Notes under the pieces: model-generated
Seen by the model: the letters and a program-made list of their open reading frames with translations, nothing else
Databases searched by the model: none
Told to the model about the DNA's origin: nothing
Assembly: GCA_902825965.1 (NCBI GenBank)
Contig: CADEDA010000001.1
Location: 1-64,000, forward strand
Reading direction: 5' to 3'
Source of the DNA: an uncultured Gemmatimonadota bacterium
Lineage (GTDB): Bacteria; Gemmatimonadota; Gemmatimonadetes; Gemmatimonadales; Gemmatimonadaceae
Length of the DNA stretch: 64,000 bases
Position numbers and translations under genes: made by a program
Shown here: positions 12,709-18,578 of the stretch, piece by piece
Position numbering within the stretch: position 1 is the first letter of the stretch
How the letters are laid out: each line of letters starts with the position of its first letter

Positions 12709-15700
12709 ATGGTGGCGCGAATCGAGGTCCGGGGCATCGGCGCGAGTGAGATCCGCATCGGTCGGCGTCGCATCACGCCGGCGACGGAGGTCGTGTTCGC
12801 GCTGGCGTTCTACATGTGCATGCGGGCCGGCGAGCGCGTGACGCGCGACGAGGTGGTGGAGCTGTTCTGGGGCACGGCCGACGTCGTGCGGGGCCGCCAC
12901 TCGCTGCGGCAGATGTTGTACAAGCTCCGGCAGCGCGGCTTTGCGCTGGACGAGGAGGGCGAGGAGCTCTTCGTGGACGCCGGGCGCGTGGTGAGCGACG
13001 TGGCGGCGGTGTTGCGGGAGTCATGGGTGGAGGAGGTCCCGCTCGTCCAGCTGGAGGCGGCGTACGAGCTGATCCCCGGCTACACGCGGGCGATCTCGCT
13101 GCCGTTCGAGGGCTGGCTGGGCGCGCAGCGTGCGGCCTTGGGCGCCCAGCACCGCCGCGCCTGCCTGCGCCACCTCGCCCATGCGCGGCGCGAGGGCCGT
13201 TGGGCGGACCTCGACCGCATCGCGCTCCTGATGCTGCGCTCGGACCCGTTGAACGAGGAGGCGACACTCGCGCGGGCCGAGAGTGCGGCGATGATCGGGT
13301 CGAAGGCGTTGGCGCTGGAGATCCTGGATCAGTACATGGAGGAGCTGGGGGACAAGGCGGTGAAGATCGGGTTGCCGGCGACGGTGTTGCGGAGGCGGAT
13401 ATCGGAGACGACTCCGCACTGGGCTGCCAACTTGAACAAGGACGCTGTCTTGGTGGGGCGCATGCGAGAGATGCTGACCCTCGGGCAGTCTCTCGAATCG
13501 GTCTCGAGCGGAAACGGTCGTTCCGCGCTGGTGGTTGGCCCTCCCGGGGTTGGAAAAACACGACTCGCCTCCGAAGTACTCTCATTCGCGCGGCTCCGGG
13601 GATTCACTGTGGTGGGCACGCGGTCGTCCGTTCAACATCGATTGCAGCCATACGCGACCGCAGTCGCACTATTGCTCTCATTGGTAGATGTTCGGGGAGC
13701 CGCCTCGTGCTCCCCCGAGGCGATGGCTCTCGCGAGGAGAATCTCGACGGTTCCAGATCGATTGCGGCCGAATGCACTCGCAGCTCCGTCAATATCCTCG
13801 GATGAACTTGTATGGGCGTTGACCGCCATCATCGTCGCCATCGCCGAAGAGTCGCGACTGTGCTTGCTCGTTGACGACCTTCACAATTGCGATTCGGAAT
13901 CTCTTCCGATCCTCGTTAGATGTGTCCACGCCACGGCCGAAGCGCGCTGTCAGTGGATCTTCACAAGTCGGAGGCGTTCGGACACAAGTCAACTGACGGA
14001 GTCGACGGTGCTCTCGCTCGCTCCTCTCGCGCCAGCGGATAGTCTCGAGCTGGCGACAGCGTTCGTGTCCCGGAACCCGGTCGGCGCGAAGACTCGATCC
14101 GCGGGAGAGATCGCCCGAGCAAGCGGTGGCAATCCACTCTTTATCCGCGAACTCTCAGGAACACTCGATTCCCGGATCGATGAACCGATTCCTGCGACCC
14201 TTCGGTCCACGTTAGCGAGCAGACTCGCCCGGCTCAATCCGACTTCAACGCGCTTGCTTCGCGCCAGCGCGCTACTGGGCCCCCACGCGACGGTGGCCCG
14301 CCTCTTGCGCGTGAGATCCATACCAAGTGCAGAGGTCACAGACTGCATCGAGGGGTTGGAACACGAGGGAATCGTTTCGTCAACATGCCTCGGCGCGATT
14401 GAACTGCACGATTGCTGGACCGCGGCAGTTACAGACGGATTCGGCGGCGCCTCACTCGCGGCCCTGGCTCATGACTGCGCCGACGCGCTTCGAGAGGAGA
14501 GCCGCGAGGACAATCCACTTCTCGCTCTCGCAACAGCGAACCTCTTCCTTCGCGCAGGTGACTCCCAGAAGGCAGCCCAAGCGCTCCTATCAGTCGCTCC
14601 GCACCTTCTTGAAGTTGGACTCTCTGAGCTCGCACGCGAAGTCTTGAGAGAAACGCTCGCTCGCAATCGCAGCAGAGTGGACGCTGCGAAGCTCACGCTC
14701 ATGGCAGCAACGAGTGAGCACGCGGCCGGACGCATTCAAGAGTGCGCTCACGTCTGCGATGCGTTTCTACAGAATATCTCAAGTGAGAGCTACAAGTTGC
14801 TGAATGAGCGTGCGCAGATTCGGGCGCTGCGCGCTGACTGCGCTTGGAGGTTGGGCGAGCGCATGGCTCCACATGCCGCCGCTCTACTGCACGATGCACA
14901 GTTGGACGACCTGCTACCTTCCGTCCGACATCGCGCCTGCTTCTGGGGATTGCGCGTCGCTCTCGTGGACTCGTCTGATAGCTGGGCGGAACGTTTCATT
15001 GAGGTAGTTCGAGCGCAATCTAGACAAGAGGCACCTACTGTCTACTCTTGTCTCACGGAACTGCTGTTCGCAGCAGAGCGAGGAACCATCGACGAGATTA
15101 TTGCCGCAGAGGTCGCCGTTAGGGCATCGACCACTGAAGTGTGCTCAGCCTTCGAGCGGGTACTTGCGACTCGACTCCGTGCCACGGCTCTACGCTTCGC
15201 CGGCCTCTCCGATCAAGTCTTTGAGTTAGCTGAGCGTGCCACTGACGAAGCCGCAGCCTGCGGCTTCACGCACGAGGCAATAGGAGCTGCACTATCCGCC
15301 TGCTTCCACGCTCTGGACCTTGACGAACGCGCCGAATCTACTCGGTGGCTCGACCGTCTATCTATGTTCCAAGCAGACAACCATCCAAGCGGCACCAGGC
15401 GATCGATGTTACACGCTCGAGCTCGCGCGCTCGCGCAGGCTGGCGATTTTGAACAGTGCCACGAACTGCTGGAAGAGACACATGAGCTGATCCTCGATGA
15501 CGACCTACGTACGAGGCGCTCAGCGGAGGCTGCCCTTGTTCATTGGTGCGCGGCGGAGACTGGTCGAAGAGAGCTGGCGGAACGCTTCCTTTCTGTCTCA
15601 CTCGAAGAGATCGACAATCTGCAGCCGTCGCTGCAAATGGATTTCGTCGCAGAGCTCGGAGTTCGGACACTTCGATTGCTTGCGAACCCGCAACGTGCGA

Positions 15701-15795
15701 ATGAGCTGCACAAGCGGTACCTCAGTCGCCGCGGGCAGAGACGCGCGCTACCAGCCTTCTATAGCTGTTTGGCCTCAAGCCCACGCTTGGGCTGA
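12709..15795 (+). CDS. BTAD/AAA-ATPase/TPR transcriptional regulator with internal composition break
   Basis: 1028 aa from ATG 12709. The N-terminus (1-95) is an OmpR-like winged helix ('GRRRITPATEVVFALAFYMCMRAGERVTRDEVVELFWG...HSLRQMLYKLR'); 100-230 is a bacterial transcriptional activator domain ('P.e..LARAES...AL.ILDQYMEEL'); an AAA/NTPase module follows with Walker A GPPGVGKT near 276-283 and Walker B-like LCLLVDDLH; the last 500 residues are TPR-like helices. This is the plan of large SARP/MalT-like signal-integrating activators. Up to about 13.4 kb codons end almost always in G/C; beyond that the same frame uses many A/T-ending codons, as in the next gene. The stop overlaps the convergent HD-GYP gene by 37 bases. 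Its ligand and targets are unknown; the neighbouring HD-GYP and peptide genes are candidates. Confidence 0.88.
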   Translation: MVARIEVRGIGASEIRIGRRRITPATEVVFALAFYMCMRAGERVTRDEVVELFWGTADVVRGRHSLRQMLYKLRQRGFALDEEGEELFVDAGRVVSDVAAVLRESWVEEVPLVQLEAAYELIPGYTRAISLPFEGWLGAQRAALGAQHRRACLRHLAHARREGRWADLDRIALLMLRSDPLNEEATLARAESAAMIGSKALALEILDQYMEELGDKAVKIGLPATVLRRRISETTPHWAANLNKDAVLVGRMREMLTLGQSLESVSSGNGRSALVVGPPGVGKTRLASEVLSFARLRGFTVVGTRSSVQHRLQPYATAVALLLSLVDVRGAASCSPEAMALARRISTVPDRLRPNALAAPSISSDELVWALTAIIVAIAEESRLCLLVDDLHNCDSESLPILVRCVHATAEARCQWIFTSRRRSDTSQLTESTVLSLAPLAPADSLELATAFVSRNPVGAKTRSAGEIARASGGNPLFIRELSGTLDSRIDEPIPATLRSTLASRLARLNPTSTRLLRASALLGPHATVARLLRVRSIPSAEVTDCIEGLEHEGIVSSTCLGAIELHDCWTAAVTDGFGGASLAALAHDCADALREESREDNPLLALATANLFLRAGDSQKAAQALLSVAPHLLEVGLSELAREVLRETLARNRSRVDAAKLTLMAATSEHAAGRIQECAHVCDAFLQNISSESYKLLNERAQIRALRADCAWRLGERMAPHAAALLHDAQLDDLLPSVRHRACFWGLRVALVDSSDSWAERFIEVVRAQSRQEAPTVYSCLTELLFAAERGTIDEIIAAEVAVRASTTEVCSAFERVLATRLRATALRFAGLSDQVFELAERATDEAAACGFTHEAIGAALSACFHALDLDERAESTRWLDRLSMFQADNHPSGTRRSMLHARARALAQAGDFEQCHELLEETHELILDDDLRTRRSAEAALVHWCAAETGRRELAERFLSVSLEEIDNLQPSLQMDFVAELGVRTLRLLANPQRANELHKRYLSRRGQRRALPAFYSCLASSPRLG

Positions 15796-17120
15796 GACAG
15801 AGGTGACAGCGCATCAAGAGTTTCGCGGCGCGTTACCACGGGGTATTCGCCGGTTGCCAGCTGGACTTCCCCCATCAGCTCCTTCCATGCTTCCGGGCGA
15901 AGAATAGCATCGCAGAGGAACGGGTCGAACTGCCGACCGCTCTCCGAGGCGATCTCGGCGCGCACCGTCTCGGCATTGAGCGCGCCACGGTACGGCCGCG
16001 ATGTGCTCATGGCGTCGACGGTATCCGCCAACGCGATGATGCGCGCCCCAAGCGGAATTTGCGTACCACCGATCTGATGAGGGTATCCCCCAGCATCCCA
16101 CGCCTCGTGATGATGGAGAATCATCGGCACCAGGTCCTCAAAATGTGTCACCTTGCCCACGAGAGCGGCGCCGCGCGCGGAATGACTCTTCATCACTTCA
16201 AACTCAGCGTCCGTGAGGCGACCTGGTTTCCGAAGAATGGGGCCAAACTCGAGATAGATCTTGCCCACGTCGTGCAAGAGAGCCGCGGTCGCGATTCGCT
16301 CCGCCGCTCGATCCTTCACGCCGGACAGCCTAGCGATTACGCGCGCATACCTAGCCACTCGCTGCGAGTGACCGGATGTGTATGGATCCTGAGCCTCGAC
16401 TGTCGCTACCATCAACTGAAGCAACTCTTCATTGATTCTCTGTAGCGACACATTCGTCTTGTACATCTGGCGAATGCCCAGCATCGGGAGTGCTAGCGCC
16501 GATGTGATTCCCAGGCCAAAGCGTGCGTATGCTTCGGCGAAGAAGTAGATGAGGGGAAACGCCAGCAGGTCGTTGAGCGCCGACAGGCGCATGCTGCTGA
16601 TCCAATGCGCTCGTGTGTCGCGGCCGGTGGAGACAGCGACCACCGTGCTAACGGCGAGCTTGTTGACCACTTGCCACGCCGATACCATCGCCACGAAGGC
16701 CCAGAAGTTGGGCCGCGCTGTCGAGTCGATTAGCAGCGACTCACCACCTAGCGCGCGGTAGATGCCAACCGCGACTGCCTCCGCAAAGATGAACTGGGAT
16801 ACGTTGAAGACCGCCTTGAGTGGAACCCGGCGTGCCAGCAGTTCCGTGCCGAGAACGCTCGCAAAGACAGTGCAGATCGCAGCAATGTTCGGAGAAATAA
16901 CGACGATGCTTAGAAACGGCAGGAATCCGATACTGCCGCCGGTGGCCGTCGACGTCTTGTATCCGAGCGCGGTCGCGATGAGCCCGAACCCCGCGAAGTA
17001 GACCGCTGCGCGCCACTCGGGGTCCGTAGGAGTGGGTGCAAATACAAGCATCGCCAGCGACGCAATGATTGCGCCGACGGCGACCGTTTCCACAACGCGC
17101 TGGACTCGCTGTGCACTCAT
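15759..17120 (-). CDS. Membrane-anchored HD-GYP cyclic-di-GMP phosphodiesterase
   Basis: 453 aa. The first 215 residues are six to eight hydrophobic helices forming a membrane sensor I do not recognise. A short helical linker leads to an HD-GYP domain (about 225-430): HSQRVARYARV, HDVGK near 282, HHHEAWDAGGYP near 343 (the canonical DGSGYP reads DAGGYP, GYP intact) and DTVDAMSTSRPYR. Metal ligands and the GYP motif are present, so it should hydrolyse c-di-GMP. The gene has lower GC than its surroundings, overlaps the BTAD regulator tail to tail, and follows a 23-codon gene by 35 bases. No good ribosome site precedes the ATG; instead a hairpin (17132-17148) lies there, suggesting coupled or attenuated expression. 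Confidence 0.9.
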   Translation of the reverse strand: MSAQRVQRVVETVAVGAIIASLAMLVFAPTPTDPEWRAAVYFAGFGLIATALGYKTSTATGGSIGFLPFLSIVVISPNIAAICTVFASVLGTELLARRVPLKAVFNVSQFIFAEAVAVGIYRALGGESLLIDSTARPNFWAFVAMVSAWQVVNKLAVSTVVAVSTGRDTRAHWISSMRLSALNDLLAFPLIYFFAEAYARFGLGITSALALPMLGIRQMYKTNVSLQRINEELLQLMVATVEAQDPYTSGHSQRVARYARVIARLSGVKDRAAERIATAALLHDVGKIYLEFGPILRKPGRLTDAEFEVMKSHSARGAALVGKVTHFEDLVPMILHHHEAWDAGGYPHQIGGTQIPLGARIIALADTVDAMSTSRPYRGALNAETVRAEIASESGRQFDPFLCDAILRPEAWKELMGEVQLATGEYPVVTRRETLDALSPLSQPKRGLEAKQL

Positions 17121-17131
17121 GATAGAAAGAG

Positions 17132-17148
17132 GAGGACCCCCCGTCCTC
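17132..17148 (-). promoter_or_regulatory. Hairpin between the peptide gene and the HD-GYP start
   Basis: On the minus strand GAGGAC and GTCCTC pair around five G, followed by CTCTTTCT and then the HD-GYP ATG. It resembles a short terminator or attenuator and also sits where the ribosome site should be. Function inferred from position only. Confidence 0.45.
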
Positions 17149-17155
17149 GCAACAA

Positions 17156-17227
17156 CTAGATCCAGCTCGCCGCGTCACCCAACACAAGTGCGCAGATCGC
17201 GCTCACCAGCGACGTGATGATGGACAT
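17156..17227 (-). CDS. Putative 23-aa hydrophobic peptide upstream of the HD-GYP gene
   Basis: Reading frame ATG 17227 to TAG 17156. It is preceded by GGGAGGTGAG, a near-ideal ribosome site, about seven bases upstream, far better than that of the HD-GYP gene. The peptide begins MSIITSLVSAICALVLG and ends in DAASWI: a mostly hydrophobic stretch with one Cys (residue 12) and no basic residues. It may be a leader peptide controlling the gene behind it, a small membrane protein, or a secreted signal. I do not recognise the family, and at 23 codons chance cannot be excluded; the ribosome site and spacing are the support. Confidence 0.5.
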   Translation of the reverse strand: MSIITSLVSAICALVLGDAASWI

Positions 17228-17459
17228 TGAGACTCACCTCCCTTCGTGAGATGGCCTGGCCTCTCGACCAAGCATTCAGCAAAGTTCGGCTCCGCTCATG
17301 CGTCCTGATTGACGCTTCCGCTCTGTTCTCTCCGCTTGGAGAGAACGGGGGGTACCCTTTCCGCTTCCTCTCTGTTCAGGTCAGACTGCACCCTACGCGT
17401 ATCACCTTGACTACCAACCACTTGCCTGCTTTCGCGTACTGAACCGCCTCCCTGCACCA
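17228..17459 (-). promoter_or_regulatory. Structured leader/promoter region of the peptide-HD-GYP transcript
   Basis: Low-GC intergenic stretch with no gene on either strand. It contains a perfect 9-bp hairpin GTTCTCTCC / GGAGAGAAC with a 4-base loop (17325-17346) and a CGTC/GACG hairpin just beyond. I compared it by eye with c-di-GMP-I riboswitches and found no conserved core. The leader could still be regulatory. Confidence 0.45.
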
Positions 17460-17574: not shown

Positions 17575-18363
17575 CTATCTCCCCGGCACCCGCCGCTCCT
17601 CGCCCGACACATGCGGGGCCGAGCCGTTCGCCACCGCCGGCGCCATCCACCGGTTGGTCGCGTCCAGCACCGCCAGCACCGCCGCGGTCTCCGCGCTGTC
17701 CCGCACCTCGCAGCTCCCGGTCAACAGGATCTGCTCCCGGCCCTGACGCGCCATCACGGCGGCGAACACGAACTCCCGCTCGAAGGCCGTCATCACCTTG
17801 GCTCCCTCGAGCGAGAACATCCCCGCCACCGGGCCCGCCATCGACAGGGCCATCAGCGCCGCCCGCGCCGCCACCTCCACCCGGCCGCGATCGCTCTGCA
17901 GCCCCTCCTCCGCCTCACCCGCGAAATGCTCCGCCCCGATCCGCAGCGTGACCTTGCAGGTCACCCCGCGCGCCCGAGACCCACGCACCTCGACGTCCTC
18001 GAAATACACGGGACGGCCGATCTTGCCCATCACCGCCCCCTCGTTCGGCGTGGCCACGACTCCTGGCGATGGCGTCGGACGCTTCGACGTCGCCGCGATT
18101 GACACCTTGCGATGATCCACGCGCAGCCCCAGCTGCGCCATCAACGCACTCTCGATGTTCCGCACCACCTGCTTGGGAGGCGTGTCGCCCGTCACCAGCA
18201 CGTGGATCGCGTCCACCGACCCCGACTCGGTCGCGGTGATCCGCACCGACACCACGTCGGTCAACGATGCAATCAACTCCTCCGCCCGCTGCAGCGGCAG
18301 CACGGAACCCGCGATCGGGGACACCGGTGTCGACGGCTGGGGCTGCGGCTGCGGCGGATTCAC
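17575..18363 (-). CDS. Conserved-looking hypothetical protein, two-domain
   Basis: 262 aa if started at the GTG 18363, with AAGG five bases upstream; an in-frame ATG at 18444 would add 27 low-complexity residues. After a Pro/Gln-rich leader, residues about 25-95 form a compact alpha/beta domain ('SLTDVVSVRITATESGSVDAIHVLV...PKQVVRNIESALMAQLGLRVDHRKVSIA'), and about 125-245 a second domain with repeated beta strands and 'AAALMALSMA'-like helices. The first domain pattern (strand, 'D.IHVL', 'V..IESAL....G...D.rk..i') occurs in many bacterial proteins of unknown role. No catalytic motif or signal peptide is seen. Neighbour of the sigma-54 activator on the same strand, 215 bases downstream of it. 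Confidence 0.75.
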   Translation of the reverse strand: MNPPQPQPQPSTPVSPIAGSVLPLQRAEELIASLTDVVSVRITATESGSVDAIHVLVTGDTPPKQVVRNIESALMAQLGLRVDHRKVSIAATSKRPTPSPGVVATPNEGAVMGKIGRPVYFEDVEVRGSRARGVTCKVTLRIGAEHFAGEAEEGLQSDRGRVEVAARAALMALSMAGPVAGMFSLEGAKVMTAFEREFVFAAVMARQGREQILLTGSCEVRDSAETAAVLAVLDATNRWMAPAVANGSAPHVSGEERRVPGR

Positions 18364-18578
18364 AGAACCTTGTGCGAAACGGTGAGTGCTCGGAACCGAC
18401 GAGAATCTATCCACTTTGGATCGCCTCGAACCCGGCCGAGGCACGGGCTACTCGCTGACTGTCGATAAACTTGCCAACCACGGGACGCCACCGCAACGCA
18501 ACACGATGTCGCAACTCTGCATCAGCCAACCTGCGGGTGCTTCACCCATCCAGCATCCCGCGTCCCTCGCCCGCAACC

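Follow-up and report, generated by a model that had tools for sequence, protein, structure and literature searches.

In the window, by which we mean the whole 64,000-nucleotide stretch of DNA analysed here, a 23-codon peptide gene sits inside a structured RNA leader directly ahead of a gene for a membrane-bound HD-GYP protein. The C-terminal tail of the peptide and the membrane domain of the HD-GYP protein diversify together, whereas the flanking genes and the catalytic domain do not. On this comparative pattern we judge, with a probability of roughly 0.6, that the locus is a peptide-signal/receptor cassette resembling the pherotype quorum-sensing loci of Gram-positive bacteria, in which the putative receptor is a c-di-GMP phosphodiesterase. 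The genes concerned are as follows.

17156–17227, minus strand: 23-codon peptide gene, MSIITSLVSAICALVLGDAASWI; a homologous ORF occupies the matching position in loci that match the RNA model R1, with a third-position excess of changes
17233–17242, minus strand: Shine–Dalgarno (SD) sequence of the peptide gene, GGGAGGTGAG; an SD-like core is common to homologous starts
15759–17120, minus strand: MASE9/HD-GYP gene, putative receptor, from Pfam domains and a predicted model
12709–15795, plus strand: convergent gene for a STAND ATPase regulator with a winged-helix-like N-terminus and a TPR-like C-terminus, co-varying third member
17575–18444, minus strand: conserved upstream gene UP289, used as flanking control

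The peptide frame starts with the ATG at 17227–17225 and stops at 17158–17156, and the HD-GYP ATG at 17120 follows 35 nt past the stop. A sequence-only reading of this DNA had described a ribosome site at good distance from ATG 17227 and a hydrophobic peptide with one Cys. The site is present at 17242–17233, and the frame bears out the remainder: the product has a conserved hydrophobic N-terminal part, a single Cys and the variable tail D-A-A-S-W-I. Conservation of the frame in relatives had been put forward as a check. Among equal-length ORFs from 26 pairs chosen on the flanking gene (385 codons), differences at the three codon positions number 69, 60 and 124 (p = 6.6e-7), and the frame is kept. 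The dN/dS ratio is 0.24–0.29 in 27 pairs chosen for similar N-terminal parts, which makes this a biased choice. Because of the codon-position counts and the dN/dS values, we take the frame to be translated, and the short gene is conserved and translated-looking. The observation of a small ORF is confirmed and is not a chance one. An SD-like core precedes all 113 peptide starts, although this count is partly circular since the search model contains the SD.

Once 12 loci that were truncated and one whose start was wrongly called (L153) are set aside, 112 loci yield 106 distinct peptides, mostly of 14–27 residues, with two longer. All except one (105/106) have a Trp within the last six residues; it is penultimate in 94 peptides and last in 13 (WW being entered in both). 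At the position four before the Trp, the 101 scored tails have Asp in 61 cases, Glu in 7 and Gly in 23, and 33 have no acidic residue there. Neither the Trp nor the acidic residue of the tail is therefore universal, and the commonest form is D/E/G-x-x-x-W-x following the conserved hydrophobic N-terminal part. Within one genus the N-terminal part is stable and the tail varies, as in MEFMAQLVNAMWSFVLADLKTWG, ...ADMKIWG and ...ADAKVWN. The tails have no conserved Cys.

The genome of the window groups with the Gemmatimonadaceae, the top named relatives of its HD-GYP protein being from metagenome-assembled Gemmatimonadaceae/Gemmatimonadetes genomes. The arrangement of ORF and leader recurs upstream of HD-GYP orthologues. 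R1, a covariance model of the 5' RNA domain built from 29 sequences, has hits in 37 of 61 relatives at E up to 0.1 and, at E up to 0.001, in 124 of 179 family genomes, or 83 of the 105 of good quality, nearly always in single copy. Elsewhere in the class, an SD-led ORF ending in Trp is present in 13 of 20 regions taken upstream of HD-GYP homologues from other families, a short ORF without terminal Trp in three, and neither in four. The element is thus conserved across the class Gemmatimonadetes. More distant families (L064–L069) and truncated genomes stand outside the family counts of peptides and pairs given here. In the genomes without the element that we compared, by eye and without a count, the HD-GYP orthologue is missing as well or the contig is interrupted at this place. 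We rejected a mobile or repeated element because there is usually one copy per genome.

Two copies on different contigs were seen in G151 (L148 and L151), G170 (L119 and L012) and G094 (L162 and L197); some of these genomes are cut exactly at the element, reflecting either mixed strains or two alleles. At L196 (G103) two consecutive copies are separated by a run of N, an apparent tandem that we leave uninterpreted.

The leader had been described as structured, and it proved to be larger than a local hairpin: the whole RNA element spans 17359–17136. Its parts are as follows.

17225–17359, minus strand: 5' domain of the structured RNA (model R1), with conserved unpaired GAGCGGAGCCGAAC at 17297–17284
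17345–17353, minus strand: 5' strand of long-range helix P1, ACCCCCCGT
17136–17144, minus strand: 3' strand of P1, ACGGGGGGT, shortly before the HD-GYP start
17325–17346, minus strand: hairpin P2 (GTTCTCTCC/GGAGAGAAC), predicted fold; covariation weak, 35/2000 permutations as good in the strand-swap test
17300–17315, minus strand: hairpin P3 (GCGTC/GACGC), 0/2000 in the strand-swap test
17251–17275, minus strand: hairpin P4, 0/2000 permutations as good in the strand-swap test
17132–17148, minus strand: local hairpin GAGGAC/GTCCTC followed by CTCTTTCT, terminator-like and mutually exclusive with P1

P1 pairs a 5' C-run with a G-run ahead of the HD-GYP start and so spans and encloses the peptide ORF. 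RNAalifold recovers P1 from 27 sequences; it predicts 13 pairs, and for 5 of them at least one sequence carries a change in both partners. The native strands of 104 elements pair with −32.2 kcal/mol, compared with −24.2 kcal/mol for strands swapped between genomes, and none of 2000 permutations was as good. The swap tests for P4 and P3 used 44 and 42 sequences, respectively; P2 remains weak. Folded as a single sequence, the leader is unexceptional (z = −1.57; 13 of 200 shuffles as good), and the structure thus rests on covariation and not on energy. Local folds between the ORF and the HD-GYP gene in relatives have a median of −8.1 kcal/mol (84 loci). For the 5' domain alone, RNAalifold gives only five pairs, from the C-run to the peptide SD. 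The C-run (17353–17345) could accordingly pair, as an alternative, with the peptide's own ribosome site; this pairing is without covariation because the SD is nearly invariant. Rfam covariance models gave no match to the window leader at the gathering threshold, and a permissive search gave two chance-level matches. No known riboswitch or other Rfam RNA was thus detected, in agreement with the sequence-only reading, which had recognised no riboswitch core.

That reading had also noted a hairpin and CTCTTTCT in place of a ribosome site before the HD-GYP gene, and both are present. A terminator scan of the region found four sites, three of them overlapping at the local hairpin, where 0.2 would be expected from shuffles. 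Only 5 of 102 HD-GYP starts are preceded by a canonical SD; in 94 of 102, a G-run ends a median of 14 nt before the start, followed by a pyrimidine-rich spacer. P1 may therefore cover the ribosome site of the receptor gene. Together with the conserved structured leader and the terminator-like hairpin, the covered G-run and the scarcity of canonical SDs are points for a leader-peptide attenuator, in which translation of the ORF would sense a metabolite or the level of Trp-tRNA and set HD-GYP expression by a terminator/antiterminator switch or by covering the ribosome site. This possibility had been raised from the sequence, and it fits poorly. The leader ORFs have no run of control codons, and their last residues are variable and co-vary with the receptor protein (see below), which a cis-acting leader would not need. 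For these two reasons we reject attenuation as the main function, and we regard it as very unlikely. What stands of the proposal is that a second layer of control is possible, in which the RNA would occlude the start of the HD-GYP gene or the terminator-like hairpin would act.

The HD-GYP protein consists of a membrane domain (amino acids 1–216), a coil (217–244) and the HD-GYP domain (245–412). Pfam MASE9 scores 30.6 bits against a gathering cutoff of 24.3, and HD_5 is also above its cutoff. The conserved HD, H, HH and GYP motif, which we take to comprise the metal and active-site residues, is invariant in 86 aligned sequences. An AlphaFold2 model based on 86 sequences is confident (mean pLDDT 93.3), and its residues 228–423 align with the c-di-GMP phosphodiesterase 4mcw (Z = 25.9). 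Residues 3–205 align with the ECF S-components FolT (5d0y), a transition-metal one (4m5b) and RibU (5kbw) with Z up to 13.3 over 154–190 residues, values that can be unspecific in helical folds. The membrane domain is thus predicted to have an ECF S-component-like fold. No ECF energising module was found among the adjacent genes scanned. If the MASE9 membrane domain does share the S-component fold, as modelled, this may offer a lead to the ligands of MASE-type sensors.

Most of the loci that we examined have UP289 ahead of the element; the gene is well conserved and has no family match in Pfam or NCBIfam. Between the genome of the window (G000, 4.07 Mb in 73 contigs) and its closest relative (L003/G016), the neighbouring GcvT is 97% identical, the NtrC-like protein 91%, UP289 91% and MoxR 94%, and in the same comparison the HD-GYP protein is 61% and the STAND regulator 42% identical. 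The loss of identity of the HD-GYP protein against its relatives sits in the membrane domain. Among close groups with different tails, divergence is 0.25–0.69 in the membrane segments, 0.09 in the coil and 0.14 in the HD-GYP domain, with loops 28–32 (0.69) and 124–138 (0.55) among the most variable segments.

In a partial Mantel test with UP289 and the HD-GYP domain controlled, tail distance is correlated with membrane-domain distance (r = 0.345, 0 of 500 permutations as high), and there is no link between tail and catalytic domain (r = −0.09, 473/500). The set comprised 72 of 113 loci, 41 without a complete receptor, flank or Trp tail being left out, and the permutations do not fully remove shared ancestry. 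A correlation with the membrane domain is also seen for the N-terminal part of the peptide (r = 0.317), and the link is therefore not confined to the tail. In 26 non-overlapping close pairs, the membrane domain lags further behind the catalytic domain the more the tails differ (tail agreement against membrane-domain deficit, Spearman −0.60, p = 0.0013); the comparison of pairs having at least four of five tail positions alike with pairs having fewer gives p = 0.0035. Pairs with the same or nearly the same tail (G150/G146, G126/G100, G181/G031 and G186/G020) have membrane domains 85–96% identical, the same-tail pair G150/G146 reaching 96%. In G138/G022, G137/G139, G098/G095 and G120/G121, the membrane domain falls to 57–68%, with an HD-GYP domain at 85–95%; for G138/G022, with tails DSIVWN and DFMVWG, the values are 98% for UP289, 95% for the HD-GYP domain and 67% for the membrane domain. 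There are exceptions: G172/G028 has four of five tail positions alike, yet a membrane-domain identity of 48%, and G080/G092 and G091/G083 have small deficits despite only three of five.

In the window's genus, the UP289 tree joins G000 with G016 (99/99), and the membrane-domain tree places G000 with G009, G014 and G001 (89/90), G016 being outside. The tails of G000, G009, G014 and G001 are DAASWI, DSASWI, DAANWS and DAASWS, with the pattern D[AS]A[SN]W; that of G016 is DTLIWG. For the membrane domain, a G000+G016 clade is rejected (AU p = 0.020) in a test run after the pair was noticed. The 5' RNA domain is 96–100% alike in the swapped pairs G138/G022, G120/G121 and G016/G000, which places the break at or in the peptide gene.

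Another explanation would be relaxed constraint and recombination only, with the membrane domain and the STAND gene evolving fast or being often replaced and the adjoining tail hitch-hiking. Physical adjacency and the strong divergence of the STAND gene in all pairs except some same-tail ones agree with it. However, the HD-GYP domain lies just 3' of the membrane domain and is linked too, yet it has no tail association; the RNA domain directly before the peptide is nearly unchanged in several swapped pairs; and the Trp and the frame are kept. We consider this explanation very unlikely. Much the same holds for a bacteriocin or toxin with matched immunity, in which the peptide would harm neighbours and the membrane protein would protect its own cell. 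Matched hypervariable pairs with a short hydrophobic peptide are what such a system would show, but immunity would need neither the catalytic HD-GYP residues, every one of which is kept, nor the nearly invariant coil and catalytic domain, and the genes are usually in single copy at one syntenic place.

The main rival is an intracellular microprotein: the peptide would never leave the cell and would be a small membrane subunit tuning the HD-GYP membrane domain, the two co-evolving as contact partners. The peptide is hydrophobic, of the size of a single helix and encoded beside a membrane enzyme; the spacing of the two genes is very close, and the N-terminal part co-varies as well as the tail does. 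Against this, alleles diverge fast between species with UP289 96–98% alike, and an internal subunit would not be expected to keep one Trp fixed while the rest of its tail varies. Contig breaks also suggest coexisting alleles. At 13 of 127 family element places the contig breaks off no more than 100 nt past the ATG, against 0.74 expected (from rounded contig numbers), and at 3 of 127 a contig end lies within 100 nt upstream; several ends fall where the conserved N-terminal part of the peptide stops. Assembly of mixed alleles would give such ends. A shared repeat as their cause is disfavoured by the single element copies in one-contig genomes. Overall, we think an internal subunit unlikely.

The convergent regulator would form a third member of the signal/receptor cassette that we favour. 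Its AAA_16 and NB-ARC matches are above cutoffs, the model has TPR-like helices, and Foldseek matches include 6mfv and MalT (8bob). A long antisense ORF follows the HD-GYP gene in 90 of 95 loci, and a STAND relative is detectable in 50 of 96. With 3 of 26 pairs left out for too short a STAND sequence, tail agreement is correlated with STAND identity (rho = 0.47, p = 0.022, 23 pairs). For the C-terminal part of the regulator, identity is 91% in G186/G020, 78% in G150/G146 and 66% in G126/G100, three pairs with the same or nearly the same tails; it is 58 and 44% in two pairs with four of five positions alike, and 24–50% where at most three are alike. For the same-tail pair G181/G031 the value is 28%, and G031 has no gene at this place. 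The second suggestion of the sequence-only reading had been that the peptide is a signal and that either the membrane domain of the HD-GYP protein or the adjacent regulator, then called BTAD, senses it; this is strongly supported by the co-diversification of the tail with both proteins. The variability of the STAND protein equals or exceeds that of the HD-GYP protein, and the latter may therefore not be the only or main receptor. At L046 and L056, MoxR directly follows the HD-GYP gene and the regulator is missing; the peptide/HD-GYP pair can thus stand alone. We identified no peptide exporter or protease at the locus.

As a mechanism, we propose that the hydrophobic part would anchor the precursor in the membrane and that, as happens with streptococcal SHPs, a C-terminal piece of about six residues would be released. 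This tail would be bound from outside by the ECF S-component-like membrane domain, and binding would switch c-di-GMP hydrolysis by the HD-GYP domain through the conserved coil. The STAND/TPR regulator may either read the same peptide as well or be a matched output. Since P1 covers the region in which the HD-GYP ribosome site is expected, how much receptor is made probably depends on the state of the leader or on its translation. More tentatively, and with somewhat less than an even chance in our estimate, the comparisons point to a class-wide peptide language of the Gemmatimonadetes. In it, a short hydrophobic precursor would be cut to free a tail some six residues long, typically D-x-x-x-W-x. 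The reader of this tail would be a transporter-like ECF S-component fold fused directly to a c-di-GMP phosphodiesterase, with a matched STAND/TPR regulator probably reading it as well. Recombination would exchange pherotype alleles made up of peptide, receptor domain and regulator, the crossovers falling within the tiny gene beside a highly conserved RNA, and P1 would couple the synthesis of receptor and signal.

By analogy, the locus would function like ComX/ComP or SHP/Rgg systems; it is a member of neither, because no isoprenyl transferase, histidine kinase or Rgg is found among the adjacent genes. As described in PMC4008528, Bacillus ComQXPA has a variable pheromone with a Trp in the last 5–10 residues; the membrane receptor encoded beside it varies in its N-terminal multi-helix domain and is conserved in its cytoplasmic one. 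Here too, a C-terminal Trp stands in an otherwise variable peptide, and the putative receptor combines a variable membrane domain with a conserved cytoplasmic one. Unlike in ComQXPA, there is no ComQ among the six adjacent genes scanned, the receptor output is HD-GYP in place of a histidine kinase with response regulator, the peptide has mostly 14–27 residues against 52–73 for the precursor there, and structured RNA surrounds the ORF. In streptococcal SHP/Rgg systems, according to PMC3679016, the precursor is short and hydrophobic, and the mature form is its C-terminal part starting with Asp or Glu. For comparison, the position four before the Trp is acidic in 68 of 101 tails here and Gly in 23. 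Unlike in SHP/Rgg, there is no Rgg, the adjacent regulator is an AAA_16/NB-ARC STAND/TPR protein, and the coupled partner is a membrane c-di-GMP enzyme. The host phylum differs from that of the streptococci, and its cells have two membranes.

RNAIII of the Agr system is likewise a structured RNA holding a small ORF, and N-terminal parts such as MFSSLFDFFGSVLSLLGNG may resemble the amphipathic leader of AgrD. Unlike in Agr, the adjacent genes scanned include no AgrB-like gene, and the tails are without a conserved Cys. The domains above cutoff and the invariant catalytic residues are those of MASE9-HD-GYP phosphodiesterases; the differences here are the ligand-like peptide gene in front and a membrane domain predicted to be S-component-like. 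The regulator has the NB-ARC/AAA core and TPR-like arm of STAND/TPR and MalT-type regulators; unlike these, it is convergently encoded and co-varies with a peptide gene.

In the literature searched, which excluded most subscription papers, we found no description of a peptide/HD-GYP pair in this phylum; a term search of PMC11109978 gave no mention, and a review of c-di-GMP sensing (PMC8846402) uses the word 'peptide' once in the portion available. If our interpretation is correct, a peptide signal would be wired straight into c-di-GMP breakdown through a single membrane protein, and a phylum for which that literature describes no peptide signal would gain a testable one. It would also hint at what an ECF-S/MASE9-type sensor domain can bind and would add a new structured RNA. 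The pherotype alleles make receptor specificity testable by swaps of tails and domains. As a whole, the locus of this soil-type bacterium has the look of a bacterial peptide-signalling system that has so far escaped recognition and whose effect would be the destruction of the messenger c-di-GMP.
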